This document shows positions 3,472 to 33,550 of a stretch of DNA of 36,618 nucleotides, one piece after another. Positions within the stretch are counted from its first letter, which is position 1. Every line of letters begins with the position of its first letter. Origin of the DNA: PVC group bacterium (GTDB lineage: Bacteria; Verrucomicrobiota; Verrucomicrobiia; Chthoniobacterales; SZAS-18); the NCBI GenBank assembly GCA_903642295.1, contig CAHJWO010000006.1:1-36618 (forward strand), written 5' to 3'. Below the pieces are notes generated by a model, which was not told the DNA's origin, ran no database searches, and saw nothing but the letters and a program-made list of their open reading frames with translations. The position numbers and the translations under genes were made by a program.

Positions 3472-4392
3472 TCAGAAGCCGACCGCTGTTGCTAATTTCC
3501 GGCTATAAACTCCAAGTGTCTGAACGTGGTATTTGGTAGCAAAGCTCTCGAAGCAAAAGTAATGCGAATCTCCGTTTACATCGGTGAAAATGATTTCACC
3601 CGTTCCAATTGGACCCCGTTTGCCGTAGGTGCAGTATGACTGAAGTCTCGCAAAGATGTCGTTTTCACCCACACCTCCGAACTGTTGTTTAAACGCCGGC
3701 GATTCGATGCAACGCTGACAGGGTTGCATGGGGTCTTCGGCCTGAGCAAGGTAATGGGGATGAACAGAAGTCAGGGCTACCACCGGCGTATCAGCCCAAA
3801 CTTCCTCCACATACCTCCACAACGTCGAGGTAATTGTGTTGCCGAAGTGTTTGGCGATGAGGCGAATGCTCTCTAAAGAGACCGGCAAGCTGCGCGCCAT
3901 GGTGACGAACAATTCTTGGAAGAACAGCAACTGACCCGCGCCGTAATTTGCCTCAGATTCGATCACCTCCAAACAGCTAGGACTTAGCTCTTTAAGAGTA
4001 TCCCCAAGCATGAACTGCTGGTGCCAGGGAATGAGGCTATGTAAAGTTTCGTGGGTTTCGAACCAGCGGTGCTTCAGCAATGGTTCGTTCGCATCCACGA
4101 GGATCCTTCTTCGGTCAGGTACCCAAAGTGCGGACAACTCGGCTCTTTTGATCACATCCCAGAGTAAGGTTGGCCGGATGACGATTTGCTTGAGGCCGAT
4201 CCTAACTTTGCTCACAAATTCTTGTACGGCGCTGTCGTCTCCACTTCGATAATAGCGCACGTCAAGGTCTAGCAAGGCGCGTACGTCTTCAAGTTTGAGG
4301 GGGGGAGAAGGGTTACCCAGCCCACGAAGGACCTTAGTGACCTGCACTTGGATGTCCCTTTTCTCGTATTCGCCAAGGAGGAGGTTCTTCAT
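3472..4392 (-). CDS. ImmA/IrrE-type zinc metallopeptidase
   Basis: A 306-residue protein with the metallopeptidase signature HETLH at residues 114-118 and a downstream Glu in 'ESEANYGAGQLLF' (about residue 147), the arrangement seen in ImmA/IrrE proteases (HExxH plus ExxxN). Family members cleave XRE-type repressors, often after DNA damage or phage infection; CapP of CBASS and other defence operons is the closest functional analogy. It is the last gene of a leftward operon, 14 bases after the XRE-type gene, which is the expected partner and probable substrate. The C-terminal ~90 residues contain four Cys (two in a CQRC pair) and may bind metal or sense a signal. Family assignment is solid; the target is inferred from neighbourhood. 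Confidence 0.85.
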   Translation of the reverse strand: MKNLLLGEYEKRDIQVQVTKVLRGLGNPSPPLKLEDVRALLDLDVRYYRSGDDSAVQEFVSKVRIGLKQIVIRPTLLWDVIKRAELSALWVPDRRRILVDANEPLLKHRWFETHETLHSLIPWHQQFMLGDTLKELSPSCLEVIESEANYGAGQLLFFQELFVTMARSLPVSLESIRLIAKHFGNTITSTLWRYVEEVWADTPVVALTSVHPHYLAQAEDPMQPCQRCIESPAFKQQFGGVGENDIFARLQSYCTYGKRGPIGTGEIIFTDVNGDSHYFCFESFATKYHVQTLGVYSRKLATAVGF

Positions 4393-4406
4393 GGAAATTT
4401 CTGCGA

Positions 4407-4994
4407 TTAACTGAGTTCCGAGAGATGCTTAACGAATTGAGCCAGCAAATCCTTTTCGTCTTTGGTTAGTTTACCCATGCCGTTCGAACAGGCCGCAAAA
4501 CGGAATCTTTCAGCCTCATGTTCGCGGTCCTTCTTGATGATTACGCCTGAAAACCTAGCAAGAGAATCAGTCGGCAGTTTAAAGAATCTTTCCAACTGAA
4601 ACAGCGTTCTGGGCTTGGGTAAATACCCAGGAGATTCCTCGATCAAATGTATCTCGTTTACACTGATGTCTGCCTTTTTTGATAATTCTTCTATCTTTAG
4701 GTTTTCTCGACGCCTGAGCATTTGCATCAATCTACCAAAGCCTTGGTCCGGTTGGCCTTCGACTACGTGGTCTGGCGGAGAATAGCTGCCGAACGGAATG
4801 ATTTTGGCCTCTGAGGCGGCGAGAGCAGCCTCAATCGTCCTTTTGGCCTCATCGGAGAGTTGTTGAGGATCCCGGTTGAAGGCGCGGATGACCGCGTCAA
4901 CTTCGGCTTCTCCAGCTTCCAGGATCAACTCGCAGAAAGCTCGATGGACATTAGGGGAATTTTCCTGGCTATCTGCCGATTGATCGTGATTCAT
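4407..4994 (-). CDS. XRE-type helix-turn-helix regulator paired with protease
   Basis: A 195-residue protein with an XRE/Cro-like HTH at roughly residues 86-140 (FGRLMQMLRRRENLKIEELS, then ISVNEIHLIEES). The ~80 residue N-terminal part resembles no domain I can name, and the C-terminal ~50 residues may hold dimerisation or cleavage sites. The gene begins 26 bases inside the 3' end of the sigma-like gene and is followed after 14 bases by the ImmA/IrrE-type protease, so the three are probably cotranscribed and coupled. By analogy with CapH/CapP and ImmR/ImmA pairs, it likely represses the divergent conjugation operon until cleaved; this is inference. The ATG at 4994 is the only sensible start. 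Confidence 0.8.
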   Translation of the reverse strand: MNHDQSADSQENSPNVHRAFCELILEAGEAEVDAVIRAFNRDPQQLSDEAKRTIEAALAASEAKIIPFGSYSPPDHVVEGQPDQGFGRLMQMLRRRENLKIEELSKKADISVNEIHLIEESPGYLPKPRTLFQLERFFKLPTDSLARFSGVIIKKDREHEAERFRFAACSNGMGKLTKDEKDLLAQFVKHLSELS

Positions 4995-5589
4995 GGTAGG
5001 ATGTAATTTTGCGCAAGATGCGTTTGCTAAGGGTGGCGTACACAGTGTCGGAAAGTTTCAGGAGGGATTGGATGTCCTTCTTTTCATGCCCATCTGCGCG
5101 GTGCTTGAAGACAGCAAAAGCTTCAGGATCATCGTCAAACAACGCATAGATGGCTTTTACGTCTTCTTTGGCTGCCGCGCGCAAATCCATGTCGCGGTTG
5201 TGATTCCGAAGATCCCGTAACTTGTCCAAAGGATCATCTACGCTTTCCCCGTTTTCGTCATCGGAGACCTGTCCGGCTTCAACTCGGCGCTGCATTTTGG
5301 GAACTTCGTGACCAGCGATGTTCTCCATGGCTCTGCCGAGGTGCAGCAGAATGCCTACTCCTCGCCGCCATTGCTTCCTGCCATCGAGGGTTCGTTCGAC
5401 AGCCTCGTGGAAGAGTTCCCGGGGTTCCATTCGACCGGGTGGTATCCTGAATGCACGGCAGCAAACGAGCGCAATTGCTTCCAGCTTCTTTAGTTCGACA
5501 CCGCTGAGTGCATGGATGGCACTGCGTGCCTCGCTGAGCGAGGCATAAGTCGGCGACTCCTGCGTGTGCGGTGTGCAAACCGGATTCAT
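4969..5589 (-). CDS. Sigma-70-like factor of the conjugation locus
   Basis: A 206-residue protein resembling a small sigma-70/ECF-type factor. Residues about 30-100 hold a helical segment (LEAIALVCCRAF, ELFHEAVERTLDG) similar to region 2. The C-terminal 60 residues (DDPEAFAVFKHRADGHEKKDIQSLLKLSD.YATLSKRILRKI) look like a region 4 helix-turn-helix. The central part is Asp-rich and variable. It is the first gene of the leftward operon, and its start at 5589 lies 95 bases from the start of the divergent multi-Ubl gene. A dedicated sigma factor here suggests that the operon pair is read from non-standard promoters. An alternative is a phage-type HTH activator that only resembles sigma. Confidence 0.65.
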   Translation of the reverse strand: MNPVCTPHTQESPTYASLSEARSAIHALSGVELKKLEAIALVCCRAFRIPPGRMEPRELFHEAVERTLDGRKQWRRGVGILLHLGRAMENIAGHEVPKMQRRVEAGQVSDDENGESVDDPLDKLRDLRNHNRDMDLRAAAKEDVKAIYALFDDDPEAFAVFKHRADGHEKKDIQSLLKLSDTVYATLSKRILRKITSYHESRSIGR

Positions 5590-5684
5590 CCCGATTTATG
5601 CCGCTTGGGGTGACCTCCACGGACAAAAAAGAAAAAGGTTTTTCATTGTCTTCACACCGGGGCATCGCGGGCAACAAAACCCAT
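5590..5684. promoter_or_regulatory. Divergent promoter region of the Ubl locus
   Basis: These 95 bases separate the start of the sigma-like gene (5589, leftward) from the probable start of the multi-Ubl gene (ATG 5685, rightward). They should contain both promoters and any operator for the XRE protein. I see an A-rich tract (aaaaaagaaaaagg, about 5624-5637) but no convincing -35/-10 pair of housekeeping type and no obvious palindrome. That is compatible with recognition by the local sigma factor, but does not prove it. Confidence 0.45.
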
Positions 5685-6809
5685 ATGACCGATAACAATC
5701 CAACTCAAGTTCAACCGGAACGCAGCGCCACCCACGCACACGCCAAATGGTTCCTCGTCCACGACGACGTTTCCTTATCCGTCCCAGCACCGGTGGTACG
5801 TGTCAGTGTGATCAAAGCTCAGGCGTCCATCGCGCCGGGTAAACGTCTGGTTCGTGACCACAACTCCCCAAACGATGTCCTCCTCAACGATGACCAGACG
5901 GTGGACCTGCGCGAAGGAAATGTTTTCTACACCTTGGACGCCGAGGATATTGAAGGGGAGCGCGACCATTGCAGCCAGCCAGCCAAGCTGGCCATGCTCG
6001 TCGATGACCGCGCCGAGATCATTGGCACTCCCCACCAACATGGACGCAGCATCCGTGATCTGTTCGACATCCCCGTCGGGTCTCTGCTCTTCCGAGATTT
6101 GGACACCCCGCACGATGAGCCCATCGCTGACGACCAAGTTGTCGAGTATGGCGACGGTCCTGTGTTCTACAGCCGTCACCACCAGAAGACTATCCTCAGC
6201 ATCGTGGTCAACAAAAAGACCTTCACGGCAGAAAACGGCGTGAAAGAAGAGATGACCGGACTGGCTATCGCGTCGCTCGTCAGTCAAAATCCGGCGCAGA
6301 CCGACGTGTACAAGCGTGAGGGTGGAACCCGCAAAGCTGTGGGCCTGCATGAAACCATCCGGGTGATGACCGGCGACGAGTTCGACGTGATTCGCCAGCA
6401 GGTGCAGGGAGGTTTTGAGCCCACGCGCATCGAAAGGGAGTTAAACATCCTGCGCGTCGGCGGAGCCAACGTGGTTTTTCATGGCGGGACTCCCGCAGCG
6501 GTGGTGTACCACGATCTCCCCGTGCGAGCGGGGAACAGCGTCGGCGTAGCCAAGAGCGACGTGCTGGTGCTGGTGCCCAGCGGTTACCCTGCCCAGGCCA
6601 TCGACTGTGCCTTTCTGCCGCAAGGGTCGCCTTTGTTGGGACGGGTTCCTGGTGCGCCCCAATACGCCGTGGTCGTTGGCGGTTGTGCATGGACTCAGGT
6701 CAGTTATCATCCGCACAACGGAGGCGGAGGCCCTCCTTGGAACAAGGATTGCCTGGGATTTCACACGTACATTGATGAACTGCTGGCCTGGTTGGACAAA
6801 GCGCAATGA
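5685..6809 (+). CDS. Multi-ubiquitin-like / E2-like fusion protein
   Basis: A 374-residue protein from ATG 5685; an upstream start at 5571 would overlap the divergent gene and add an unlikely tail. Residues about 20-85, 100-165 and 169-243 are three beta-grasp-like units of the multiubiquitin type, the first two closing with the same 'GxVFYT/S' edge after a 'DDQTVDL' or 'DDQVVEY' turn. Residues about 247-374 match the Prok-E2_E family: 'RIERELNILR', 'VLVLVPSGYP', 'GCAWTQVSYHP' and a terminal 'FHTYIDELLAWL'. Candidate active-site residues include Cys308, Cys334, Ser340, His342, Cys356 and His360; I cannot say which is catalytic. A Gly-Gly at 242-243 falls exactly where the third Ubl meets E2. 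The stop overlaps the JAB-E1 start in ATGA, implying translational coupling. Role inferred: Ubl donor and conjugating enzyme in one chain. Confidence 0.85.
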   Translation: MTDNNPTQVQPERSATHAHAKWFLVHDDVSLSVPAPVVRVSVIKAQASIAPGKRLVRDHNSPNDVLLNDDQTVDLREGNVFYTLDAEDIEGERDHCSQPAKLAMLVDDRAEIIGTPHQHGRSIRDLFDIPVGSLLFRDLDTPHDEPIADDQVVEYGDGPVFYSRHHQKTILSIVVNKKTFTAENGVKEEMTGLAIASLVSQNPAQTDVYKREGGTRKAVGLHETIRVMTGDEFDVIRQQVQGGFEPTRIERELNILRVGGANVVFHGGTPAAVVYHDLPVRAGNSVGVAKSDVLVLVPSGYPAQAIDCAFLPQGSPLLGRVPGAPQYAVVVGGCAWTQVSYHPHNGGGGPPWNKDCLGFHTYIDELLAWLDKAQ

Positions 6810-8353
6810 ATCGGCGCATCCAGTCTGACCAGACCCGGGGACATTGTTCCCTGCGGATCACCGAGACCTGTCGCACTCGATTAGAGACGCACCTCTACCG
6901 GCGCTATCCCGAGCGTGAATGGGGCACCTTTTTCCGCTTTGGCTGGCGACGAACGTCTTGGGGGGTAGCATTGTTCTTCGTCGATGGCTTGTGGCCTCAG
7001 TCAGGGGATTTGAATCGAACCGTTGGCATCGTTGAAATCCGTAGCCAGTACACTCTGCGGGCTGTCGATGCACTCGCGGCCAGCGAACTGGGAATCGGGG
7101 TCATCCATTCTCACCCAGAAGGCGCAGACACGTTCCCTAGCCGACTCGATGACGATATGGATGGGTATTTCGCCGGGTTGTTCGGCGACTATGCTCCAGA
7201 TCGGCCTTACGCCAGCATCATCTTTAGCCGCGCGGAGGATGGAGAGTTCCGATTCACTGGCCGCATCTACGTGGATGGCGGGTGGCTGCCGCTCCAAGAT
7301 CTATTTACCTGCGGAGATGCTTTGGAGCTCCAAACATGCCAGCTTTACGAAGATCCACTTCAAGGCAAACGATCCCGCTTTGAGCAAGAAAGCGAGCAGG
7401 GTGCAGCGCTTGCAACGACGGCGCGCCTGCGCTCCTTTCTGAGCGATACGGCAGGTAAGCGCCTGCACCAGTCAACCGTTGCGATCATCGGCTGTAGTGG
7501 TACTGGATCGCCTGCCGTCGAAGTGCTCGTACGTGCTGGTGTCGATAAATTCGTGCTGGTGGACTACCAGCGCCTTTCCGTTTCGAATTTGGAGCGGGTG
7601 CATGGCAGCACAATGCAGGATGTCATGGCAAAAGTTCCTCCCTTCAAGGTGGAAGCGATGATGCGGATGATCCATGAGATCAATCCCGAAGCCAATGTGG
7701 AAGCTATTGTCGGCAACATCCTTGACGAGGAAGTCCTTGACGCCTTGCTCCGGGCAGATGTCGTCCTTAATTGCACGGATACTCAGCACTCGCGGGCGTT
7801 CTTGGGTGATTTGGCCGCCCACTACCTTTTGCCCTCGCTCGACCTCGGTGTGTTGCTAGAAGGAGCAGGTGGTCGGGTTCACGCTCAGGTGGGGCAATTT
7901 ACCTGGTTTGAACCCAATCTGCCGTGCGCGTTTTGTGGGCAGATGGTGGACTACGCAACTTTAGCTTATGAAATGATGAGTGACGAGGAGAAGGAGCAAC
8001 GCCGGGAGGCTGCCCAACTCGCCCGGGAACGCGGCGTTGACGCAGATCAGTACTGGCGTGGTGAGCCGCCGCAACTGCTTACCGTGGGCTATTTAACCTC
8101 CATGATCGGCAGCTTGGGAGCCGGTTATGTGATCGGGGCGCTGACGGGCAAATTCAAAATGCCGCATTCAAGGTTCCAATTCGACATCAACTCACCATCT
8201 TTGGGGGTCGTCGAAATTGACCGGCTTCATGGCGAAGGCTGTTCCTGTGCCTCAAAAATTGGTTTTGCTGATCAAGCCCGAGCTGACCGGAGTGTGAGTC
8301 GGCCTGCCCATTGGCCGAAAGCCAACAAGATTCTGCATCATCCAAATGGATGA
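6806..8353 (+). CDS. JAB deubiquitinase-like / ThiF-E1 fusion protein
   Basis: A 515-residue two-domain enzyme. Residues about 20-170 form a JAB/JAMM metalloprotease: HSHP at 101-104, then Ser112 and Asp115, giving HxHPx7Sx2D exactly, with Glu38 as the probable upstream catalytic Glu. Residues about 205-500 form a ThiF/E1-type adenylating domain: nucleotide loop IIGCSGTGSP from 227, 'VDYQRLSVSNLERV' from 252 with the usual Asp and Arg, 'LNCTDT' about 321-326. A CxxC at 374-377 and CSC near the C-terminus may bind zinc. The E1 part should adenylate the Ubl C-terminus; the JAB part should trim Ubl precursors or cleave conjugates. JAB-E1 fusions next to E2/Ubl fusions are typical of bacterial ubiquitin-like operons. 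All recognisable catalytic residues are present, so the protein is probably active. Confidence 0.9.
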   Translation: MNRRIQSDQTRGHCSLRITETCRTRLETHLYRRYPEREWGTFFRFGWRRTSWGVALFFVDGLWPQSGDLNRTVGIVEIRSQYTLRAVDALAASELGIGVIHSHPEGADTFPSRLDDDMDGYFAGLFGDYAPDRPYASIIFSRAEDGEFRFTGRIYVDGGWLPLQDLFTCGDALELQTCQLYEDPLQGKRSRFEQESEQGAALATTARLRSFLSDTAGKRLHQSTVAIIGCSGTGSPAVEVLVRAGVDKFVLVDYQRLSVSNLERVHGSTMQDVMAKVPPFKVEAMMRMIHEINPEANVEAIVGNILDEEVLDALLRADVVLNCTDTQHSRAFLGDLAAHYLLPSLDLGVLLEGAGGRVHAQVGQFTWFEPNLPCAFCGQMVDYATLAYEMMSDEEKEQRREAAQLARERGVDADQYWRGEPPQLLTVGYLTSMIGSLGAGYVIGALTGKFKMPHSRFQFDINSPSLGVVEIDRLHGEGCSCASKIGFADQARADRSVSRPAHWPKANKILHHPNG

Positions 8354-9104: not shown

Positions 9105-9941
9105 ATGGCTCGCCGCTCCAAACCGCCGAATTTCGCCCACGATCTCCACCACGTTTTTCTGCACGTTCCTGCTTGGTTGTGCCTGCCAGCAGCCGTCATC
9201 GCGTATCTGGGAGTGCAACTCGGGCTCGGCGTGGCTGCGTCCAGCAACCCGCTGTACCGTGGCCTCGCACAATCCGGCTCCCTGTTCGGCTGCATGGCGG
9301 CGGGCATGGTGCTCGTGGCCGGGCTGACCGCAGCCCTCAAGAAAGCCGAGCGGCGGGTGCTCTTCGACAAGCAGCGCAGCATGGAGTCGATCCGCGCGTT
9401 GAACTGGGTCGAGTTCGAGCAACTGACGGGCGAGGCGTACCGCCGCCAAGGCTACCAGGTCACCGAGAATGGTGGCGGCGGGGCCGACGGCGGCATCGAC
9501 CTGATCCTGCGCAGAGAGGGCGAGAGGTTGCTGGTCCAGTGCAAGCAGTGGCGGGTGTTCAAGGTCGGGGTCAAGCCGGTGCGTGAACTTTATGGCGTGC
9601 TGATGGCGCACGGGGCGGACGGAGCGATCTTCGTCACCAGTGGGACCTACACCCAAGAGGCCAAGGACTTCGCGGCAGGCAAGCCCCTCAAACTCGTGGA
9701 CGGCGAGGCACTCGCCCGGCTGATCCTGCCGGTCCAGGAGGCAAAATCCACGCCGCCACTTCGCGGTGATGTGCGGGTCGTCGAGCCTTCTCCAGCCGCC
9801 ACTCAAGATGCGCCGGAGTGCCCGGGGTGCGAGCGGGCAATGGTGCTGCGAACCGCCGGGCGCGGAACCAACGCAGGCTCGCAGTTCTGGGGTTGCCCAG
9901 CGTATCCCCGCTGCCGGGGAACACGTCAGGTTGCACGGTGA
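9105..9941 (+). CDS. Membrane-anchored Mrr-type restriction endonuclease with topoisomerase zinc ribbon
   Basis: A 278-residue protein with three parts. Residues about 18-80 contain two hydrophobic segments (PAWLCLPAAVIAYLGVQLGL and FGCMAAGMVLVAGLTAAL), suggesting a membrane hairpin. Residues about 95-210 are an Mrr_cat/restriction endonuclease-like domain: 'WVEFEQLTGEAYRRQGYQV', then 'GGADGGIDLIL...LLVQCKQW', the D..QxK nuclease core, and 'GADGAIFVTSGTYT'. The C-terminus is a topoisomerase-type C4 zinc ribbon (CPGC ... FWGCPAYPRC). Proteins of this architecture are common in bacterial islands and are presumed to cleave foreign or modified DNA, though the membrane anchor makes a DNA-uptake or quality-control role possible. 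The catalytic core looks intact. It stands alone, without a methylase. Confidence 0.85.
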   Translation: MARRSKPPNFAHDLHHVFLHVPAWLCLPAAVIAYLGVQLGLGVAASSNPLYRGLAQSGSLFGCMAAGMVLVAGLTAALKKAERRVLFDKQRSMESIRALNWVEFEQLTGEAYRRQGYQVTENGGGGADGGIDLILRREGERLLVQCKQWRVFKVGVKPVRELYGVLMAHGADGAIFVTSGTYTQEAKDFAAGKPLKLVDGEALARLILPVQEAKSTPPLRGDVRVVEPSPAATQDAPECPGCERAMVLRTAGRGTNAGSQFWGCPAYPRCRGTRQVAR

Positions 9942-11141: not shown

Positions 11142-12554
11142 GTGTCGTATCAAGGTTCGTCTTCCATGACTGACGGGCCTCTTCCACCATCGTCCAACAC
11201 CGAGGCGTATGCATTTGTCTCCACCGAAACACCGGCAGCCGCTGAACCTTTGGCCTCCAACCACGGGGTGGTGGCTGCCAAGGCACCGAACACTTACCGC
11301 GTTCTACACACGGCAGACTGGCACTTGGGCAAGTATTTGGTGACACACTCACGCGTCGAGGAGCACGACTGCTTTTTCAACTTTCTGTTGCAGGCCATTG
11401 GGCAACACGAAGTGGATGCGTTGATCATCGCCGGTGACGTGTTCGACACCCCGAACCCGCCGCAGACCGCCGTCCGGCAATACTACAATTTTCTCGCTCG
11501 CTTGCGATCCGCAGGAGCCTGCTCGGTGGTGATCGTAGCGGGCAATCATGATTCTCCAAGCCATCTGGAGGCACCGAGAGAGGTGCTGCAATCCTTGTCG
11601 TGTCACGTCGTCGGTACTTTGGCCGCGCGGTGTGAAGATTGGCTGGTTGCACTGCCCAACGGGGACGATGCCAAGCTGGTCGTGGTGGCAATGCCCTTCT
11701 TACGCGACGCCGATCTGCGCGTGGGGATGTCGGGGCAAAACGCCGAAGAAATACGCGCAGCCTTGGCAGCGGGCATCAACCGCTGCTACACCGAGGCGGC
11801 CCGAGCAGCCCGAGCGTGGCAAGAACGAGGAGTTCCCGTGCTGGCAACCGGACACCTGACGGTGGTCGGTTCAAAGAGCAGTGACAGTGAACGCGACATC
11901 CACGTCGGTGGATTAGGTGCGGTGACGGCGGATTGTTTTTCCGAAATATTTGCCTACGTAGCACTTGGGCACCTGCATCGTCCTCAATCCGCGGGGGGGC
12001 GTCAACACGTTCGCTACTCTGGATCTCCTCTGGCCCTGAGTTTCAGCGAAGCAGACGACTCGAAGGAGGTGCGCATACTCGACTTTGCCGACGGCGGTTT
12101 GGTCGGGCAGTGGGCGCTGCCTGTACCCTGTACGCGACGCTTGGTGCGGGTAAAAGGCCGGTATGAGAACCTGGCCGAAAACTTGGTGGCACTCGCAACT
12201 CAACTTGCCGACAATAACATCTTGCCGTGTTGGGTGGAGGTCACCTTAGAAAATACCCCGGTTACCAATAATCTTTTCGAGGAAGTACGGCGGCTGACGG
12301 AGCCGCATGGATTGGAATTGATTCGCATCACCCTTGGGACCGGGAACAAGCCAGCCGGTCTGACCATAGCAGAGGGAGTCGAGGCAGGGGCGGACGACGC
12401 GTGGTTGGCGATCCTTGAAGACCCGAAGGTGGTGTTTGACCGCCGCCTAGAGGCGGAAAAGGAAAGTCTTGCCACCGAAGATCATGCTGCGCTGACAACC
12501 GCTTTCGCAGAACTGTGCGAACTCCACGCGGCGCAGCACCGGGAGGCCGCATAG
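11142..12554 (+). CDS. sbcD: Exonuclease subunit SbcD
   Basis: A 470-residue Mre11-type nuclease subunit. The metallophosphoesterase motifs are all present: 'HTADWHLGK' (Asp59, His61), 'IIAGDVFD' (Asp99), 'VAGNHDSPSH' (Asn135, His136, Asp137), 'LATGHLTV' and 'YVALGHLHRPQ'. With SbcC it forms the complex that cleaves DNA hairpins and protein-blocked ends. About 50 low-complexity residues precede the catalytic domain, longer than usual. The GTG at 11142 has a ggag about ten bases upstream; ATG 11166 is an alternative, and a true start nearer 'YRVLHTADW' cannot be excluded. It is followed after 36 bases by sbcC, forming an operon. Confidence 0.93.
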   Translation: MSYQGSSSMTDGPLPPSSNTEAYAFVSTETPAAAEPLASNHGVVAAKAPNTYRVLHTADWHLGKYLVTHSRVEEHDCFFNFLLQAIGQHEVDALIIAGDVFDTPNPPQTAVRQYYNFLARLRSAGACSVVIVAGNHDSPSHLEAPREVLQSLSCHVVGTLAARCEDWLVALPNGDDAKLVVVAMPFLRDADLRVGMSGQNAEEIRAALAAGINRCYTEAARAARAWQERGVPVLATGHLTVVGSKSSDSERDIHVGGLGAVTADCFSEIFAYVALGHLHRPQSAGGRQHVRYSGSPLALSFSEADDSKEVRILDFADGGLVGQWALPVPCTRRLVRVKGRYENLAENLVALATQLADNNILPCWVEVTLENTPVTNNLFEEVRRLTEPHGLELIRITLGTGNKPAGLTIAEGVEAGADDAWLAILEDPKVVFDRRLEAEKESLATEDHAALTTAFAELCELHAAQHREAA

Positions 12555-12590
12555 CTGGCCATTTTTTGCTACGACCAATTTTCTGCTGGC

Positions 12591-15500
12591 ATGAAGATTC
12601 TCCGCGTTCGCTTCAACAACCTGAACTCCCTGTGTGGCGAGCAGCCGCACGAGGTAGATTTCGAAAACGGTCCGCTCCAAGGCGTGTCCCTGTTTGCGAT
12701 CACGGGTCCGACCGGGGCTGGTAAATCGACCTTTCTTGATGCCATCACGCTGGCCCTCTATGGCCGTGCGGCGCGCTACGCCGACGTGTCCAGCCCTGAA
12801 GACATGATGAGTCGGCATTGTGGTGAGTGTCAGGCTGAGGTGGAGTTCAGCGTCCCTGCCGGGCGCTATCGGGCGGTGTGGCAACTGCACCGCAAACGCA
12901 GGAAGCCGGATGGACCCTTTCAGCCAGCCAGGCGTTACATCTATGATGCCGTTACCGGCGCAACCCTGGCTCAAAATGTCCGCGAAGCCGATGATAAGAT
13001 TCAGCAAATCATCGGTTTGGATTACAGCCGGTTTCTGCGCTCCGCCATGCTGGCTCAAGGTGAGTTTGCCAAGTTCTTGAAAGCGGGCGCGTCAGAACGC
13101 TCTGAATTGTTGGAATGCTTGACTGGTACCACCGTTTATTCGGAACTCGGGCAGCTTGCTCACAGTGAAGCAACGCGTCGGCAAGCGGGTCTCAGTGCGC
13201 GGGAAAACAACCTCGCCAATGTCGTCCTGTACACCGCACCGGAGCGACAGGAACGTGCAGAAATCCTCGTTCGGCTGGAAGCCGAGTCCGAAGCGATTCA
13301 GCAGGAGAAAGGCCAGGTGGACCAAGCACTCTCCCTCGCCCGTGAACTCGCCAAGGCACTAGGCAACGAGCGGCAAATTGTTCAAAGGCAAAACGAGCTT
13401 GATCGTCGCCAGCAGGCAGCCGAGCCGGAACTGGCCCGGTTGCACATACACCTTCGCACCTTGCCCTTTGTGGAAGCTTTGGGGCGCCTGGATGCGGCCA
13501 TTGAACAACATCGTGTTCAGAAGGGCAGGTTTTCAGCGGCTGAATCTGCCCACACCAAAGCAGACCGGGAATATCGTGCCACCCTGGCCGCCGCAGCCAG
13601 CTTCGTCGAAAAATTGGCGACTGATAGCAGGAACCAACTCGCAGGGCTTCAAGAGACGGTTGAAACCCAGATGCAGAAGCGGTGCGAAGTTTTCCAATGG
13701 TTGGACCAGCATGTCCGGGACGGGGCGGAACTCGAAAGTGCCCTGCCGATCTTGCAGACCGGTTTGTATGACCTGTCCCACCGCAGAAGCGTTCTGCAAG
13801 AAGCTCAACGCGGCGTCGCCGAGGTAATCGCAACGGTGGCAATTCAGGAAAAGTCGCTCCCTGAGTTCGAACGAAGCCTGGTGACGACACAGCAAACTTT
13901 GGCCGCGCGCACCACGGACAAAGCGCAGGGGGAAGAAAAATTGCAATCACTCCTCGCTGGGGGCACGACCGCCGAGATGCGGACCGGGATAGACGATCTG
14001 CAAAAGCGTCTTGATTCAATCAAGGAATCGACCGCTCAGGTCGAGCGCCGTGACGAGTTGCAAGGGAAACTCGATTCAGATCGCAGGCAGTTGCTCACTC
14101 TGATCGACAGCCTCAAAGCGGCAGATGGTCAGGTCGCGGAGTTGATCGACAAACGGCGGACAGCCGAGGAACAACAAAGTCAAAAGCGTGACCATTTAGA
14201 GCAGGTGCGATTCCGCCAGAGCTTTGAGCAGCACCGTGCAACGCTTCGAATCGGTGAGGCTTGTCCTCTGTGTGGAGCGTTGGACCATCCCTACGCGGAG
14301 AGCTACCAGCCAAGGTTCGATCCTAACCAACTTGAAGTTGAGTTGCAGGCGCTGACTTCAGCCCTCGGGGACCTGGACGCAGGGCTTATCCAAGCTCGGG
14401 CGGTACAAACTAGCTGCCAAACGCAAATGGCGTCGTTGGAAAAGGGGACTCGAGAAGGGGAATGCGCGGTGGCAGCAGCGAACCAGAGAATAGACGCCGT
14501 CGCGGCGAATCTGGGGCTTGCGGATAGCAAACTGACTGCCTTGCAGCAGGCAGCGGTCGATATGCTGTCGCGTCAAAACGTTTTGAAGGACACACTGGCC
14601 CAGGTCGAAGAGGTCGAGAAGACAGTCAGCAAATTTACGGTCGAACATTTGCGTGCACAGCAAGCCATGGATTTTGCCGTGGGAGAGCATACGCAGCAGG
14701 TCGGGCGATTGCGCGAACTTCAGCTTCAACAACGCAACCTTTCCGAATCGGTTCACCGCGCGACGAGCGAGTTGGAAAAGTGCGTCGAGGGCCTGACAGT
14801 TCAGATGGAGCGGTTTGGGTGTGGCGTTCCAGTGTCAGGAGACGAAACGTCGAGCCAACAGCTTCTCGGGGACCGACAGAGCCGTTACCGCAAGCAGGAT
14901 AATGCACGGCGGGATTTGGACGGTACGATCGTGGCCGCACAATCCGCGGTGCAGTTTGCCAGCCAAGCCTCGGCTGAGCTAACCAGCCAAGCGGCAGAAT
15001 TGCTTCGGCGAATGCAGACACAGCCAGTTACCAGTGAGGAGGCCGCATCTTCGATGCGGGTCCACCCTGTTTGGAGTAAACTTGGAGACGTTTTGCAAAG
15101 CCTCAGTTCATCCGAGTTGGCCCTGCAAACGGCGCACGGGAACTGGGGGCATTGTCAACGAGCGGTCGAAGCGGCTGGCAATTTGGTCAATCAACAAACT
15201 GCCGACCTCACGCAACGCCTCGCTTCATCGGGTTTTGACTCCCTGGCAGAGTTGCGGGCTGCGCGGCTGGAGGATGGGCAGGCTGCAAAGCTGGAGATGC
15301 TGGAAAAAGAACTGGCTGCACAGGCCAGTGAACTGAAAGGTCATGCGGCAGCGGGGCAGACAGAAATACAGGATCTCCGCGCCAAAGAAGCACCTGAAGA
15401 GGCGGCGATCCCGGTTTTGGAGGGGAAATTCGCCACCCTGGAACAAACCTACAAGCAACGGCTCTCTGAAATCAGTCAAACTCGGGTAGAACTTGCCCAG

Positions 15501-16070
15501 GATGATACAAAACGCCGCGAGCACGAACGGGGTATCGCGGAGTTGGCCGAGGAACGCGTCCGGCTTACGGTGTGGACCCGTTTGCAAAGTTTGATTGGTT
15601 CGCACGATGGAGCAAAGTTCCGTAAATTCGCACAGGGAATCTCTCTGGATCTGCTCGTACGTCGAGCCAACAGTCATTTGCGACGCCTGAATGACCGGTA
15701 CGAACTGCGTCGAAGAGAAGGTGAACAGTTGGATTTGGACATCGTTGACCATTACCAAGCTGGCGTCACGCGGCCTTTGGCCAGCCTGTCGGGCGGCGAG
15801 AGCTTTCTGTCCAGCCTCGCGCTGGCTCTGGGGTTGGCTGACCTAGCCAGCCGGAAAGTGCAGATCAACTCTCTATTCATCGACGAAGGCTTTGGAACGC
15901 TGGACGCTGAAAGCCTGGACGTGGCCATCTCGGCGCTCGATGGGCTGCGACGCCACAACAAAACCATCGGGGTTATCTCCCATGTAGAACTGCTCAAGGA
16001 GCGGATTTCAACGCAGATCATGGTTGAAAAAGGTGTCGGTGGAACGAGTCGGCTTCTCGTAAGGCTTTGA
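12591..16070 (+). CDS. sbcC: Exonuclease subunit SbcC (Rad50-like ATPase)
   Basis: An 1159-residue SMC-like ATPase. Walker A is 'GPTGAGKST' at residues 39-47. Long coiled coils flank a zinc hook 'CPLCGALDHPY' (Cys558, Cys561). The ABC signature 'LSGGESFLSSLALALGLADL' begins at about 1065 and Walker B 'LFIDEGFGTLD' at about 1095. It dimerises with SbcD and couples ATP hydrolysis to nuclease action on hairpins, palindromes and blocked ends. Length, motif order and adjacency to sbcD are typical, so the gene is probably functional. SbcCD also degrades some phage and palindromic DNA, which fits the island setting, but this may simply be the housekeeping copy. Confidence 0.95.
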   Translation: MKILRVRFNNLNSLCGEQPHEVDFENGPLQGVSLFAITGPTGAGKSTFLDAITLALYGRAARYADVSSPEDMMSRHCGECQAEVEFSVPAGRYRAVWQLHRKRRKPDGPFQPARRYIYDAVTGATLAQNVREADDKIQQIIGLDYSRFLRSAMLAQGEFAKFLKAGASERSELLECLTGTTVYSELGQLAHSEATRRQAGLSARENNLANVVLYTAPERQERAEILVRLEAESEAIQQEKGQVDQALSLARELAKALGNERQIVQRQNELDRRQQAAEPELARLHIHLRTLPFVEALGRLDAAIEQHRVQKGRFSAAESAHTKADREYRATLAAAASFVEKLATDSRNQLAGLQETVETQMQKRCEVFQWLDQHVRDGAELESALPILQTGLYDLSHRRSVLQEAQRGVAEVIATVAIQEKSLPEFERSLVTTQQTLAARTTDKAQGEEKLQSLLAGGTTAEMRTGIDDLQKRLDSIKESTAQVERRDELQGKLDSDRRQLLTLIDSLKAADGQVAELIDKRRTAEEQQSQKRDHLEQVRFRQSFEQHRATLRIGEACPLCGALDHPYAESYQPRFDPNQLEVELQALTSALGDLDAGLIQARAVQTSCQTQMASLEKGTREGECAVAAANQRIDAVAANLGLADSKLTALQQAAVDMLSRQNVLKDTLAQVEEVEKTVSKFTVEHLRAQQAMDFAVGEHTQQVGRLRELQLQQRNLSESVHRATSELEKCVEGLTVQMERFGCGVPVSGDETSSQQLLGDRQSRYRKQDNARRDLDGTIVAAQSAVQFASQASAELTSQAAELLRRMQTQPVTSEEAASSMRVHPVWSKLGDVLQSLSSSELALQTAHGNWGHCQRAVEAAGNLVNQQTADLTQRLASSGFDSLAELRAARLEDGQAAKLEMLEKELAAQASELKGHAAAGQTEIQDLRAKEAPEEAAIPVLEGKFATLEQTYKQRLSEISQTRVELAQDDTKRREHERGIAELAEERVRLTVWTRLQSLIGSHDGAKFRKFAQGISLDLLVRRANSHLRRLNDRYELRRREGEQLDLDIVDHYQAGVTRPLASLSGGESFLSSLALALGLADLASRKVQINSLFIDEGFGTLDAESLDVAISALDGLRRHNKTIGVISHVELLKERISTQIMVEKGVGGTSRLLVRL

Positions 16071-21884: not shown

Positions 21885-23444
21885 TCAGCGACGTAGGCCA
21901 CCGCGCGTTGGCTGGACGGCCTTGACGGCGGTCCCCTCGCCAGTTTCGTTGGCTGCTTCGTCCGCCTTGCCTGCTGGAGCTTGCGAGGTCCCTGGATTAG
22001 TCTGCACTGCTACCGGCGCAAATTTCTCCGCGCCGGAAATTGCCACGGGCCGGTTGCGCGCCGCACTCATCAGCAGTTCCTTCGAAGGAGGCAACGGCAC
22101 GATGATGATGCCCCGGGCGGCCAAATTGGCGCGGTTGATGCGGTCGGCCTCGATGCGGATGGAATCCTCGTTGATTTGCTGGCGGACCTTGGCCATGCGT
22201 TCGCGGTAATCTTTGAGGTGGATGACCATAGCCCGCCGGATCTCCCTCCAATCGTAGCGACCAGCGGCTTCCGTCATCACGGCTCGAAAAATCACCGTAG
22301 GCGTGTTTTTACCGAGATAGTCGAGGTGTTTTCTCCTGGCGTAGAGAATGAAATCGCGCAGAGCGGGCAAGGGGGCTGCGACCACCACGGTGGGGTTGTT
22401 GGAACCAAGGCGCGACCCGGGCCGGCGCTGCTGGATGGCGGGGTCGCTTTTGTCCATCACCTCCAGGTACGTCCGCATCTCTATGTTGCCGAGTTGACCG
22501 GTCCACCTGACAGCTTCATCGCGCAACAGGGCCGGGTCGTCGGAGGCTTTTGTTTTCGGTTTGCGCAGGTCATCGGCGAGCAGGCGGCGGAACCGGATCG
22601 CACTTCTCTGGGGGTGGATTGGCAGCCCGGAGCGGCCCGTCTGGCTCATCAACCCAGACGCCGGTGCATTTGGGATTGGGAGAATCTGGGCACCGGCGTC
22701 TTCCCCGGCCTTTTGAACCGCGACCGTTGCTTTGCTGAAAACCTTCCGTAGCGGCAACAAACTCCTGAGTTCCGGGAGTCCGTTTGGCCGCATGATGATC
22801 TCTGGTCCCAATCCTATCAGACGGAGTTGTCGGGCAAGTTCATGGCCGTAACGCAGTTCGAGTTTCTGCCGGTAGTGGCCACCAATTTTGATCTGGATGG
22901 CCCGCCAGTCACCCGAATCGTTCTTGCCTACATTCGGAATCACCAGATGGGTGTGGAGGTGAGGGTCGTTTTCGCGGGTGTGGGTGTGGTGAAAGCTAAC
23001 TCCGATCCACTTTTGAATCTTTGGGTGTCCTGCCCGCGTAGGATGGATGATAGTTGTCACTTCCCCGGCAACCTTTTCTATGGCGGCGACGTGGGCGTTG
23101 AGGACAGCGCGGGCAGTGGGATGGTCCGGGCGGAGTAGGGCGGCAATGGAGACCGTCTTTGGAGCGGCAATGGTCAGGTCGTAATAGGCTCTTTTCCGGT
23201 TCACGCTGGGGGCGAGACGAACTTTCTGGGTGGGATGGAGTCCACGTCCAAGGCGGGTGAGGTGTTGGGCGCTGGGAGGATTCGTATCACCGAGGCCCAC
23301 TTCTGTACTTCCTCCACCAAACCACCGGGGACGCAAGGAGACTCCGGGTTTGATCGGACCTTCATCAGAATCGCCGGTCTGGAGGTGGAGACGAAAGTAC
23401 GTCCCGGCTTTGGAGGCTTGGGTACAACGAGTCAGGCGAATCAT
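21885..23444 (-). CDS. MobF (TrwC-like) relaxase
   Basis: A 519-residue conjugative relaxase. The N-terminal ~270 residues match the TrwC domain: 'YYDLTIAAPKTVSIAALL' around residue 90, and the metal-binding triad in 'FHHTHTRENDPHLHTHLV' (about residues 152-169), typical of MobF HUH relaxases. The catalytic Tyr is probably one of the early Tyr residues (Tyr16 or the 87-88 pair). The rest is a charged, Pro/Ala-rich C-terminus without a helicase domain, so it is shorter than TrwC/TraI and resembles relaxases of mobilizable elements. It nicks oriT and pilots the strand into recipients. No type IV secretion genes are visible, so mobilisation would need a helper. The candidate oriT lies just upstream. 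Confidence 0.85.
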   Translation of the reverse strand: MIRLTRCTQASKAGTYFRLHLQTGDSDEGPIKPGVSLRPRWFGGGSTEVGLGDTNPPSAQHLTRLGRGLHPTQKVRLAPSVNRKRAYYDLTIAAPKTVSIAALLRPDHPTARAVLNAHVAAIEKVAGEVTTIIHPTRAGHPKIQKWIGVSFHHTHTRENDPHLHTHLVIPNVGKNDSGDWRAIQIKIGGHYRQKLELRYGHELARQLRLIGLGPEIIMRPNGLPELRSLLPLRKVFSKATVAVQKAGEDAGAQILPIPNAPASGLMSQTGRSGLPIHPQRSAIRFRRLLADDLRKPKTKASDDPALLRDEAVRWTGQLGNIEMRTYLEVMDKSDPAIQQRRPGSRLGSNNPTVVVAAPLPALRDFILYARRKHLDYLGKNTPTVIFRAVMTEAAGRYDWREIRRAMVIHLKDYRERMAKVRQQINEDSIRIEADRINRANLAARGIIIVPLPPSKELLMSAARNRPVAISGAEKFAPVAVQTNPGTSQAPAGKADEAANETGEGTAVKAVQPTRGGLRR

Positions 23445-29777: not shown

Positions 29778-31127
29778 CTAGAGCTTGAAGGCGGTCAGGT
29801 CACTGTCGCGTTCGTCCGGAGTAGGGCCGCTACCCGTGGCAACCTCTTCCTCGGCGGACATCGGCGTCACTGGCTTGGTAAGCACCGTCGCGCTGAGTAG
29901 GTCTTGCCATGTCTTGCCCGGATTCTGGTCGAGCAGGTTGAGCAAACCCACGAACGAGCGCACCACGTCACGCGGCGTGCGGAAGTAATCCGCGCCGAGG
30001 GTGTCGTTCGCCTGCCGAAGCAATGCGACGATCCCGTCGTCGGGCACCGCGACCTTGGCAGGATCACCCCCGGCATGGACGTGAGCGATGTTTTGAAGCA
30101 GCACGAACAAATCCTCCGGCGTAAGGGGCTGCAAGCGGACCACCGGGCCCGAAAGGTCCACGAGCCCTTGCTGACGCGCGAGAGTGTTATCCGCCAACCG
30201 GCTACGCAATGCCTCGTAACTGAAGAGGCCACGCCGCTTATCTTCCAGACACTCATCGGTGCCCGCGAAAATGAAACCCAGTCCGCGCACGTTGCCTTGA
30301 AAACTGTCGTTGAGCAGGGTCAAAAGCGCTTCGTAGTTTGCCTGCCGCGCACGCGAATTGGCCAGTCGGTGGGAGAGCACCACCATCTCGTCAAGATTTA
30401 CGATCAATCCACCGAAACCCGCGTTGCGCACGAACGCCGCCATCAATTTGAGGCCGTCGTACATTGATTCGTCGTCGATGATTCGCCGCACGCCCAGATC
30501 GGCGCGCGCTTCGGTCTTCGTCGTGTATTCGCCGCGCAGCCAGCGCAACGCTGCCGCTTGCAGCGTGTCATTCTTCTCCGTGTAGCCCCGGTAGAAGGCA
30601 CGGACAACTTCTGCGAACTCGAACCCGCCAACGTGTTCTTGCAACCCGCGCAAGTCCTCGCCGATGCGCTGTTCGACATCCGCCGCGGAGCCACCGCTGC
30701 TTTTCACCGCGTGCTGCACTTGCGAGACCCAGCCAGACACCACGCTGGGCAACGCACCGCCGTCAGGCTGAGCCTTGGTTGCCAGGTTGCGCATTAATTC
30801 GCTGTAGAGTCCCCGGGCCTCCCCGCCGCTGGCATACAGCCGCCGCTCCATGCTGAAGTCGGCCTGGGCAACCACGAGCTTCTTTTGGAAGGCAAGATTG
30901 CGCACCAAATTGAGAAAAAAGCTTTTCCCGCTGCCGAATCGTCCCACGACGATGCGAAAGGACGCGCCTTCGTCACCAACCCGGTCGAGGTCTTGCAACA
31001 ACGCCGATACCTCCGCTTTCCGGCCAACTTGGATCAGATGCAATCCTTGCTTGGGCACGAGACCGGCCTGCAACGACTGTAGTACAGCGTCGCGTTCGCG
31101 CCGCTTAATGGGAACAGGAGAATTCAT
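29778..31127 (-). CDS. BrxD/SngB-like P-loop ATPase
   Basis: A 449-residue AAA-like ATPase of the DUF2791/BrxD type. Walker A 'GRFGSGKS' at residues 62-69, Walker B 'GLIVNLDEM' around 245-253, and downstream sensor-like 'GLGFIFAGTDE'. The start overlaps the TerB gene stop in ATGA; the stop is five bases before the helicase start, so the three genes form one tightly coupled operon. In BREX type 2, BrxD sits beside a Lhr-like helicase; here the TerB partner makes Shango the better match. It probably couples ATP hydrolysis to loading or activating the helicase. Role inferred. Confidence 0.88.
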   Translation of the reverse strand: MNSPVPIKRRERDAVLQSLQAGLVPKQGLHLIQVGRKAEVSALLQDLDRVGDEGASFRIVVGRFGSGKSFFLNLVRNLAFQKKLVVAQADFSMERRLYASGGEARGLYSELMRNLATKAQPDGGALPSVVSGWVSQVQHAVKSSGGSAADVEQRIGEDLRGLQEHVGGFEFAEVVRAFYRGYTEKNDTLQAAALRWLRGEYTTKTEARADLGVRRIIDDESMYDGLKLMAAFVRNAGFGGLIVNLDEMVVLSHRLANSRARQANYEALLTLLNDSFQGNVRGLGFIFAGTDECLEDKRRGLFSYEALRSRLADNTLARQQGLVDLSGPVVRLQPLTPEDLFVLLQNIAHVHAGGDPAKVAVPDDGIVALLRQANDTLGADYFRTPRDVVRSFVGLLNLLDQNPGKTWQDLLSATVLTKPVTPMSAEEEVATGSGPTPDERDSDLTAFKL

Positions 31128-33550
31128 GCAGTGAAAGGAGCTTGGCCTACAGTCAACAGCGAGCGGGCAACCTGCACGGTGTCCGTTCGGACCAGCAGGA
31201 AGTCGCCGAGCGCCTCGTCGGACCAGACGTTGATGGAATCGAAAAGATCATCCGGCAAAAGATGGTGCCGCTCGGCCAAACTGTCGAATTCCGCAGGTGC
31301 CCATCCGTCGCGCTCGATCAAGGTCAGCAAGGGCGAGTGAAAGCGTGGGTCTAACGCCTCGAGCCAGTCGGTCGAGACTGGCTGCGGCGATGATGCAAAA
31401 GTTGTTTCCTCGCTGACTGCCGGAGCCTCTTCCGGATCGGTCATGACCACCGACAGAAGCGAGATGACCTCGCGGGTTTCCTGGGTAAGCACAGCGATGC
31501 GCTCCCGGTCCAGCGCGAACGTCGAAGGCTGCGGACGAGGCGGAACAGGTTCGCCGGACGACCGGCTCCCACCCGCCTTCTCGATGACCACTTCGCGGAA
31601 GGCTTCATCACCACGCAACACGTTTTCCACGGCGTCGATTTCTAACTCGAAAGCCCGCGCCATTCGACGCAGAATTTTCAACTCTTCGAGGCTGATCTTG
31701 CCGTTTGCCGCGGCGACGCGCACCATCATACCGAGCACGATGACGCGGCTTTGCGCCGGGATGGCCCGGGCGATCTGTGGAATCGCTCGCAACGCCACGT
31801 TGGAGTCGCGCCTTAATGCTGCCTCCGTCGCTCGGACCGTTTGCCATTCTGTCTCCTGCTCAATTTGCAACGCCACGATCTTATAGAAAACTTCCATCTC
31901 CGTTGTGCCGACCTCGCCGTGCGCAGCGGCGATCGCTATGGCAAGATACAAGCACCACACCACCCCCCGCAGCCGCAGCGCATCAACCTCGTGCGGACCG
32001 GCGGGGTAGAGCACGAGTTCCTGCGACCAGGACAACGGCAGGCCAAGGAGCACTGGGTCCGGCGCAAGGTTCCAGCCGAGGCCCAAGGCCAGTGTTACTA
32101 CTTGCTGCGACTGCACGCTCGTCAGCTTTGCGCGCTCCCCCACCCCGGCCAGTGCCGCCAGCGTTCCCGCCGGGACGAACACTTGGTCCTCCTCGCGCGG
32201 CAGGTCGGTGAGCAATTCGTCGAAAGCCTCCCGGACAGGGTGAGCCTCCGTGCGCCGCAGCTCGTTCGGCAGAGCGTGCCACGCCGCCAGCGCCGCCGCG
32301 TCCCCGGTCTTCTTGGAGCTGATGGCCCGGCTGTAATTCGTCAGCGCTTCGACGCAGGAATTCCAGATCTTCGGCAACGCCTCGAACTGCTGCGCGGTTC
32401 CCAGAACATCCGGCAGGTCCACCTGCAAGCTGTCCGTATCCTTTTGACTATACCACACCTGCGAAATCGCATTGCTGGCGGTCCGGTAGGGAACCTGGGT
32501 CGGCCGCTTGCCTGCCCGCAAAGTCAAGCCAGCGGGATACCGCTCGGCGAACCGCTGCGCGAACAGCGCCCAGAACTGTTCCCGCGTCCGGGACACGACG
32601 TTGCTGCGTTGGCTTTCCTCGTTCGCGAGGGCCACGCGGTAGCCGACCGACCAATCCATCGGCTCGCCGCGTTGATATAGGCTGGCCAGTACGAAGCGCA
32701 GACCTTCCGCGTCGGCGCGTTCGCCGTCGAACTCCAGCAACCGGGGCCAGATCACGCGGTAGGCTTCGCCGCCGAGCTGCCAGCCGCCGAAGTGCAGGAG
32801 TCGCAGAAAACAATTCTTCCAAGACCGCGCACGATGCGCGGGTCCGTATTGTTGCAGCAGGCGGATGATTTCTTCGAGCAGCGCGGGGTCGCGGTCGCGG
32901 TCCAAGATCACGCGCCGTTCCACGCCGTAGAAGAACAGGAACAAATGGCCGAGCGAACGCCGCGCGGGGTCCGCGTCCGTGCGTCCGGCGGCGAGCCATT
33001 CGAGGTAAGAGCGGCGTTGCGCCGGAGTGATCCGGTCGTACCCGGCATAATACCCGAAGTCCTCCGTGGGGTCGGCGGCCACAGGGTCCACGCGCAGGGA
33101 TGGGATGATCGCCGAAGGCTCGCCCGGCCAGTCCATGGCGCGTTCGAGCGTGTATACCATGCCGCCTGCGATCTGTAAGCCGTCGATGTCGAGGGACTGG
33201 TTGGGAGGATGCCAGACGGGTTTCGGCTTAGATCGGGTCCTGGGGGTGGCCGCCAGGATCGTCCGCGGGGAAGTGCCGAACACGACCTTGATCTCGAAGG
33301 GGTTATCGGCGGGCATTTGCGGAACCGCAGGCCGTTCGGGCGACGCTTGCGCCGGAACGAGCCCGGCTGGGGGCCGCAGAGTTTCCACTGCGCGGTGGGC
33401 TGGCGCGTCGTGGGTTAGGGCAGGCTTGGCTGGCCGTGAAGCCAGAGCACCCACAGCCCACCCAAAGATGAAGCCGACCACACCCCCGCCCCGCCCGGCA
33501 GCCCAGCCGAGCAAGCATGCGCCCGTTATGGCGAGAATCCATCGCATCAC
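31124..33550 (-). CDS. TerB-domain protein, SngA-like
   Basis: An 808-residue protein, first gene of the operon; it begins GTG-ATG and either codon can start it. A glycine-rich hydrophobic N-terminus (residues 2-37) suggests one or two membrane segments. Residues about 110-270 look like TerB_N: 'SLDIDGLQIAGGMVYTLER', 'YYAGYDRITPAQRRSYLEWLAAGR', 'LGHLFLFFYGVERR'. Residues about 530-640 form a TerB core with 'LYLAIAIAAAHGEV' and 'MMVRVAAANGKISLEELKIL', the latter holding a metal-binding-like acidic loop. About 730-800 resembles TerB_C. TerB with ATPase and helicase defines the Shango antiphage system as I recall it; the membrane anchor suggests envelope-associated sensing. Confidence 0.87.
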   Translation of the reverse strand: MMRWILAITGACLLGWAAGRGGGVVGFIFGWAVGALASRPAKPALTHDAPAHRAVETLRPPAGLVPAQASPERPAVPQMPADNPFEIKVVFGTSPRTILAATPRTRSKPKPVWHPPNQSLDIDGLQIAGGMVYTLERAMDWPGEPSAIIPSLRVDPVAADPTEDFGYYAGYDRITPAQRRSYLEWLAAGRTDADPARRSLGHLFLFFYGVERRVILDRDRDPALLEEIIRLLQQYGPAHRARSWKNCFLRLLHFGGWQLGGEAYRVIWPRLLEFDGERADAEGLRFVLASLYQRGEPMDWSVGYRVALANEESQRSNVVSRTREQFWALFAQRFAERYPAGLTLRAGKRPTQVPYRTASNAISQVWYSQKDTDSLQVDLPDVLGTAQQFEALPKIWNSCVEALTNYSRAISSKKTGDAAALAAWHALPNELRRTEAHPVREAFDELLTDLPREEDQVFVPAGTLAALAGVGERAKLTSVQSQQVVTLALGLGWNLAPDPVLLGLPLSWSQELVLYPAGPHEVDALRLRGVVWCLYLAIAIAAAHGEVGTTEMEVFYKIVALQIEQETEWQTVRATEAALRRDSNVALRAIPQIARAIPAQSRVIVLGMMVRVAAANGKISLEELKILRRMARAFELEIDAVENVLRGDEAFREVVIEKAGGSRSSGEPVPPRPQPSTFALDRERIAVLTQETREVISLLSVVMTDPEEAPAVSEETTFASSPQPVSTDWLEALDPRFHSPLLTLIERDGWAPAEFDSLAERHHLLPDDLFDSINVWSDEALGDFLLVRTDTVQVARSLLTVGQAPFTA

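Follow-up and report, generated by a model that had tools for sequence, protein, structure and literature searches.

A Bub-type ubiquitin-like operon with a divergent CapH/CapP-like cassette in a Verrucomicrobia-like genome

We analysed a stretch of 36,618 nucleotides from a PVC group bacterium (assembly GCA_903642295.1, contig CAHJWO010000006.1, positions 1 to 36,618; called below the window), in which two overlapping genes encode ubiquitin-like (Ubl) domains, an E2-like domain, a JAB metalloprotease and an E1 enzyme. This pair is a genuine, intact operon of the Bub type, and so a member of a known family and not a new kind of system. By homology with the Citrobacter Bub proteins, it probably performs a cysteine-free Ubl conjugation, next to a divergent CapH/CapP-like regulatory cassette. 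New are two details: the operon belongs to a clade that has no DUF6527 gene, and the regulator includes a sigma-like gene in several relatives.

Two overlapping genes encode three Ubl domains, an E2 fold, a JAB protease and an E1

The first gene, of bubA-bubB-type (P0001, 5685-6809, forward strand, 374 amino acids (aa)), and the second, of bubCD-type (P0002, 6806-8353, forward strand, 515 aa), are both intact open reading frames. They share an ATGA stop/start overlap at 6806-6809 (forward strand), so that the coordinates and the translational coupling given in a preliminary description of this DNA were confirmed from the sequence. The same description had announced four activities packed into two proteins, namely Ubl, E2, E1 and deubiquitinase. 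The four domains were all found, as detailed below, but the E2 does not appear to be catalytic in the usual way.

In P0001, the Pfam family Multi_ubiq matched residues 187-238 (9e-7), and Prok-E2_E matched residues 270-371 below the family cut-off (1.3e-3). A profile of the Ubl-E2 protein gave only sub-significant matches when compared by sequence to the PDB, so that a fold comparison was needed. The AlphaFold2 models were computed from alignments of 12 sequences for P0001 and 13 for P0002. For P0001 (mean pLDDT 84), the model contains beta-grasp domains at residues 22-85, 102-165 and 172-237, followed by an E2-like domain at 246-371; the relative placement of these domains is not predicted, because the pTM is only 0.43. 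Foldseek matched the model to solved multi-ubiquitin proteins (1e-11), to BubA(155-229) with a TM-score of 0.71 to target, and to BubB with a TM-score of 0.67 to target at 3.3 A. The three tandem Ubl domains fused to an E2 fold, as initially proposed, are therefore supported by Pfam, AlphaFold2 and Foldseek together. On the forward strand, Ubl1 (residues 22-85) lies at 5748-5939 and Ubl2 (102-165) at 5988-6179, both delimited by the secondary structure of the model. Ubl3 with its C-terminal tail (172-243, at 6198-6413), supported by the Multi_ubiq and BubA matches, is the predicted activated unit. Only Ubl3 has a Gly-Gly end, Gly242-Gly243 (6408-6413), placed at the junction with the E2 fold.

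The E2-fold domain (residues 244-374, 6414-6806, forward strand) is not a canonical E2, since no cysteine is conserved among 18 aligned homologues from several phyla. Cysteine chemistry was rejected for this domain on the same alignment. Three of its rows were trimmed at the N-terminus, which leaves the stretch from Ser340 to residue 361 unaffected. Within that stretch, all the sequences have Ser340 and His342, and position 361 (Thr361 in P0001) holds Ser or Thr throughout.

P0002 was matched by ThiF (2e-32) and, under the family cut-off, by Prok-JAB (1e-4). Its model combines a JAB domain with an E1 domain (pLDDT 84, pTM 0.85). The JAB motif H101-S-H103-P-x7-S112-x2-D115 (7106-7150, forward strand) is invariant in 13 aligned sequences, where E38 is also intact, and the glycines of the E1 nucleotide-binding loop GCSGTG (residues 229-234, 7490-7507, forward strand) are invariant or nearly so. 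Both motifs had been called intact, rightly. The E1 conserves C323 as well as two cysteine pairs, C374/C377 and C479/C481, with the spacing of a zinc site; beyond C323 and these presumed zinc ligands, no evident E1 catalytic cysteine was seen in the 13-sequence alignment. Tyr416 (8051-8053, forward strand) aligns with Tyr370 of Citrobacter BubCD, the residue changed in the Y370F entry 9eav. This correspondence was established via a near-identical Citrobacter plasmid protein; a phmmer search with a C-terminal E1 fragment, used to place Y370, gave no match. All aligned sequences have the tyrosine, except one with a gap at that position. A weak DUF6527 match at 7023-7442 (8e-4, 13 bits) was rejected as a shadow frame within the JAB gene.

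The nearest system is Bub, and most likely type 6e

A profile of the JAB-E1 protein run against the PDB found Citrobacter BubCD as its best match (6e-30). In the fold search with P0002, eight BubCD chains came first (2e-30 to 9e-28), and ThiF next at 1e-14. On a Citrobacter braakii plasmid, a 362-aa multi-ubiquitin gene overlaps a 456-aa ThiF gene, followed by a DUF6527 gene, and the 456-aa protein matches BubCD of the PDB at 1e-252. The solved BubA chains stop at residue 229 of the 362-aa protein and the BubB chains start at 230 or, for one construct, at 228. Since the solved chains split a single protein, the Citrobacter-type system is also a pair of Ubl3-E2 and JAB-E1 proteins. The Citrobacter Bub system (BubA, BubB and BubCD; PDB 9ea4, 9ea5, 9ea8, 9eae, 9eav, 9d59/9d5a), the best studied of the family, thus has the two-gene, overlapping and fused layout of the window operon, and shares with it the folds, the position of the Ubl/E2 junction, and the JAB aspartate and the tyrosine. 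It differs by its own DUF6527 gene, by a putative regulator of two genes that lies upstream and on the strand of the operon, by an E1 without the CxxC pair, and by a Ubl ending in Asn-Gly instead of Gly-Gly.

The same architecture was described as type 6e by Iyer et al. 2006 (PMC1779556): a polyUbl protein of 2-3 domains adjoins a JAB-E1 fusion, the usual form in this type, and some species have, joined to the polyUbl, an E2/RWD-like domain that has no cysteine and is inactive. Of the one to three beta-grasp domains expected in a Bub or type 6e polyUbl protein, the window operon has three; it also has a JAB placed N-terminal to the E1 with intact motifs, an E2 fold without conserved cysteine, and an E1 closest to BubCD by sequence and by fold. 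From the matching architecture, we infer that Bub corresponds to type 6e. Type 6e usually includes in addition a metal-binding protein Y (Cx3C...Hx2C; PMC1779556), which may be the same as DUF6527 and was not found near the window clade; we counted it as a usual feature, as it is not stated to be obligatory.

The preliminary description had taken the operon for a compressed and unusual variant of Bil, and this had to be abandoned. The BilABCD system, of ISG15-like type (PMC11354881), has the Ubl, E2, E1 and JAB functions, as does the window pair, but its genes are four and unfused, and both its E1 and its E2 carry catalytic cysteines; the window operon has neither trait. Given the Citrobacter pair and the survey of Iyer et al. 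2006, what looked like a compressed Bil is the normal form of another, already named family.

Some points weigh against the assignment and the mechanism proposed below. P0002 and Citrobacter BubCD are only about 20% identical in the fold alignment, and the usual Y/DUF6527 companion is absent from the window clade, unlike other Bub operons. The hydroxyl relay that we propose is drawn from conservation and from the title of a PDB entry. Finally, a recent study of Bub (EMBO J 2026, PMC13373217) states that protection against phage has not been demonstrated for any Bub operon.

The fused pair is conserved without DUF6527

A first wide search returned mainly ordinary ThiF/MoeB proteins. The scan of genome contigs then gave 13 true relatives (loci L022-L034), all in metagenome-assembled genomes, chiefly of Verrucomicrobia and Planctomycetes, with one of Gemmatimonadetes. 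The fused Ubl3-E2/JAB-E1 pair was present in 11 of the 13 (the E1 frame of L034 being short), the identity to P0001 being 41-47% and that to P0002 41-51%, and a further fused pair was added later (L056). As both fused genes are kept adjacent in 12 relatives, the architecture is not due to chance. The two other relatives, L031 and L033, encode one Ubl on its own and the E2 in another gene. The homologues therefore do have E1/JAB neighbours, and the beta-grasp and E2 folds were predicted, so that neither outcome named in the preliminary description as refuting it came about. The identification as a ubiquitin-like conjugation operon is supported by domains, motifs and homology to Bub proteins.

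Relatives of P0001 occur in 5 of 97 sampled genomes of the window's order, its own genome counted, a sporadic distribution as expected for an accessory system. No relatives were found when viral_contigs was scanned with the JAB-E1 profile. A search of the own genome for the Multi_ubiq family was uninformative, as it did not recover the window gene itself and no control was positive. DUF6527 was found neither near the 13 relatives nor in the own genome (91.7% complete), the Caulobacter control being positive; it is present in Citrobacter, Mesorhizobium, Bradyrhizobium, Deinococcus and on the Planctomycetes plasmid pPla86_1. These results add Verrucomicrobia, Planctomycetes and Gemmatimonadetes to the range of the recently characterised Bub pathway. 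They also show that the form with two fused genes and no DUF6527 has been conserved and is not an oddity.

Fused and split forms of the polyUbl operon both occur among the close relatives of the window. Sister operons at L047:3962-6542 and L048:118-2690 (same order, one of them same genus) and at L055:4323-6945 (same class) consist of three genes, for a polyUbl whose third Ubl has no C-terminal Gly-Gly, a cysteine-free E2, and a JAB-E1 with an HCHGG motif. At L049:5054-7511, in the same order, the polyUbl adjoins another kind of E1, whose N-terminus resembles a JAB, and an E2 of the kinds tested was not found beside the two. On a Terrarubrum plasmid (L037:4642-6410), a single Ubl ending in LGGANDARERILS directly precedes a JAB-E1 gene whose product is 40% identical to P0002; the annotation shows no E2 between or beside these genes.

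A divergent regulator cassette precedes the operon

The preliminary description had overlooked three genes transcribed divergently from the operon, all on the reverse strand. The first (4969-5589) encodes a possibly sigma-factor-like protein of 206 aa, the second (4407-4994) a CapH-like XRE-type helix-turn-helix (HTH) protein of 195 aa (Pfam HTH_3; PADLOC capH, 5e-4), and the third (3472-4392) a CapP-like metallopeptidase of ImmA/IrrE type, of 306 aa with an HETLH motif (PADLOC capP, 5e-7). The gap between cassette and operon (5590-5684, 95 bp) is by its position the expected promoter/operator region. It holds three imperfect inverted repeats, and promoter and terminator scans of it found nothing.

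In the CapH+CapP regulator, as in the window, genes for an HTH protein and an M78/ImmA-like peptidase stand by the operon promoter; a further trait of that regulator is that single-stranded DNA triggers cleavage of its repressor. The window cassette differs by its third, possibly sigma-like gene and by weak capH and capP matches; in closer relatives, capP and capH scores reach 4e-53 and 8e-21, respectively. Homologues of the CapP-like peptidase are also found beside other Bub operons. Upstream of a Bub-type operon on pPla86_1 (L040:1902-3932), homologues of all three window genes (3472-5589) lie in the same order, on the strand of that operon, with identities of 41% for the peptidase, 32% for the HTH protein and 32% for the first gene. 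The first window gene has no family match itself, and owes the label sigma-like solely to a weak sigma70-ECF match (4e-3) of its homologue on pPla86_1 (L040:1932-2402).

Four relatives (L023, L025, L032 and L034) have the pair of HTH and CapP-like genes. In L022, L024, L028, L049 and L055, a sigma-70-like gene, a gene for a small uncharacterised protein and a CapP-like peptidase gene are divergent from polyUbl operons (L022:5725-7706, L024:1061-2801, L028:5783-7736, L049:7636-9435, L055:7091-8915). Two more sigma-like cassettes (L030:1580-2552, L056:6758-7767) are only partly visible, the third gene not being seen. When the L028 sigma-like protein was searched against 76 genomes of the class, the only matches besides the query were in two further polyUbl operons and, weakly, to one ordinary sigma factor.

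According to the available part of PMC13373217, 219 of 544 Bub operons carry CapW or CapH+CapP, to which CapK+CapS is added; that part names no sigma factor among Bub regulators. PprI/IrrE, a metallopeptidase of the CapP-like type, is reported (PMC10904395) to sense DNA damage via single-stranded DNA. By analogy, the window operon may be under DNA-damage control. A rather doubtful extension is that a protease-controlled sigma factor switches on the polyUbl operons of this clade. The sigma-like protein would form a dedicated divergent cassette with the CapP-like peptidase and the small protein, a candidate anti-sigma factor; the peptidase, activated upon DNA damage, would free the sigma-like protein, which would then transcribe the operon. 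The linkage of sigma-like and CapP-like genes offers a starting point for studying the induction of such pathways.

Proposed mechanism and alternatives

Gly243 is invariant in the 12 fused proteins, the standalone Ubls of the split loci L031 and L033 run 7 and 2 residues beyond its equivalent, and the Citrobacter protein is split at 229/230. Taken together, a JAB cut after Gly243 is the best reading. It would release a separate E2-fold protein and one modifier, in which the three Ubls stay joined and end in a free Gly-Gly, not three monomers. The E1 would then adenylate the C-terminal glycine of Ubl3 with ATP, and the Ubl would be passed on without cysteine thioesters, probably via hydroxyls (Tyr416 of the E1, and Ser340 or Thr361 of the E2 fold). 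We infer this cysteine-free relay because of the cysteine pattern of E2 and E1 and the equivalence of Tyr416 with Citrobacter Y370. The E2 fold would help to position the target, and the JAB could also take the tag off. With the wide alignment leaving so few candidate nucleophiles, the chemistry is directly testable.

As for its role, the operon may act in defence, induced by phage or by stress. A general stress-response modifier with no anti-phage role is possible, if somewhat doubtful: regulators of DNA-damage type accompany many Bub operons, according to PMC13373217, but the distribution is sporadic, and the neighbours in the window are defence-related (Mrr, BrxC/D-like and TerB-domain genes and a relaxase).

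A serious rival to the relay step alone, itself compatible with Bub membership, is that the E2 fold is a non-catalytic, RWD-like scaffold, the E1 transferring the Ubl directly to a held target, or the E2 domain being itself modified. Iyer et al. regarded the domain as inactive and RWD-like (PMC1779556), it has no conserved cysteine, and the structure of a BubCD-BubB-BubA complex has been solved. Against this, the invariant Ser340 and His342 and the constant Ser/Thr361 in the 18 sequences suggest more than scaffolding, and we consider the scaffold unlikely on balance.

An ISG15-like Bil antiphage variant with a working cysteine cascade is highly improbable. The four activities are there in principle, but no E2 cysteine is conserved, no catalytic E1 cysteine is evident beyond C323 and the presumed zinc ligands, BubCD is the best match by a wide margin with no Bil chain among the top E1 fold matches, and the one solved multi-ubiquitin match labelled Ubl-BilA by its depositors covers the Ubl part only. 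A sulfur-carrier or cofactor pathway of ThiF/MoeB kind, with no protein conjugation, can be given equally little credence: the E1 type and the CxxC and CxC pairs of zinc-site spacing, absent from Citrobacter, would fit it, but the tri-Ubl precursor, the fused E2-fold domain, the sporadic distribution and the adjoining immune-operon-like regulator do not, and no adjoining cofactor genes were identified.

Genomic neighbourhood

The operon sits in a defence-rich and apparently mobile region of a Verrucomicrobia-like genome. Directly 3' of it, on the opposite strand, a gene at 8386-8976 matches Rep3_C, the winged helix of plasmid initiators (4e-6). Just downstream, 9105-9941 (forward strand) encodes an Mrr-type restriction endonuclease with a zinc ribbon, and beyond it lies an SbcD/SbcC-like nuclease pair (11142-16070, forward strand). 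A TrwC-type relaxase gene at 21885-23444 (reverse strand) suggests that this region belongs, or once belonged, to a conjugative element. Further on, overlapping genes for a BrxC/BrxD-family ATPase and a TerB-domain protein (29778-33550, reverse strand) look like a further defence-type operon.
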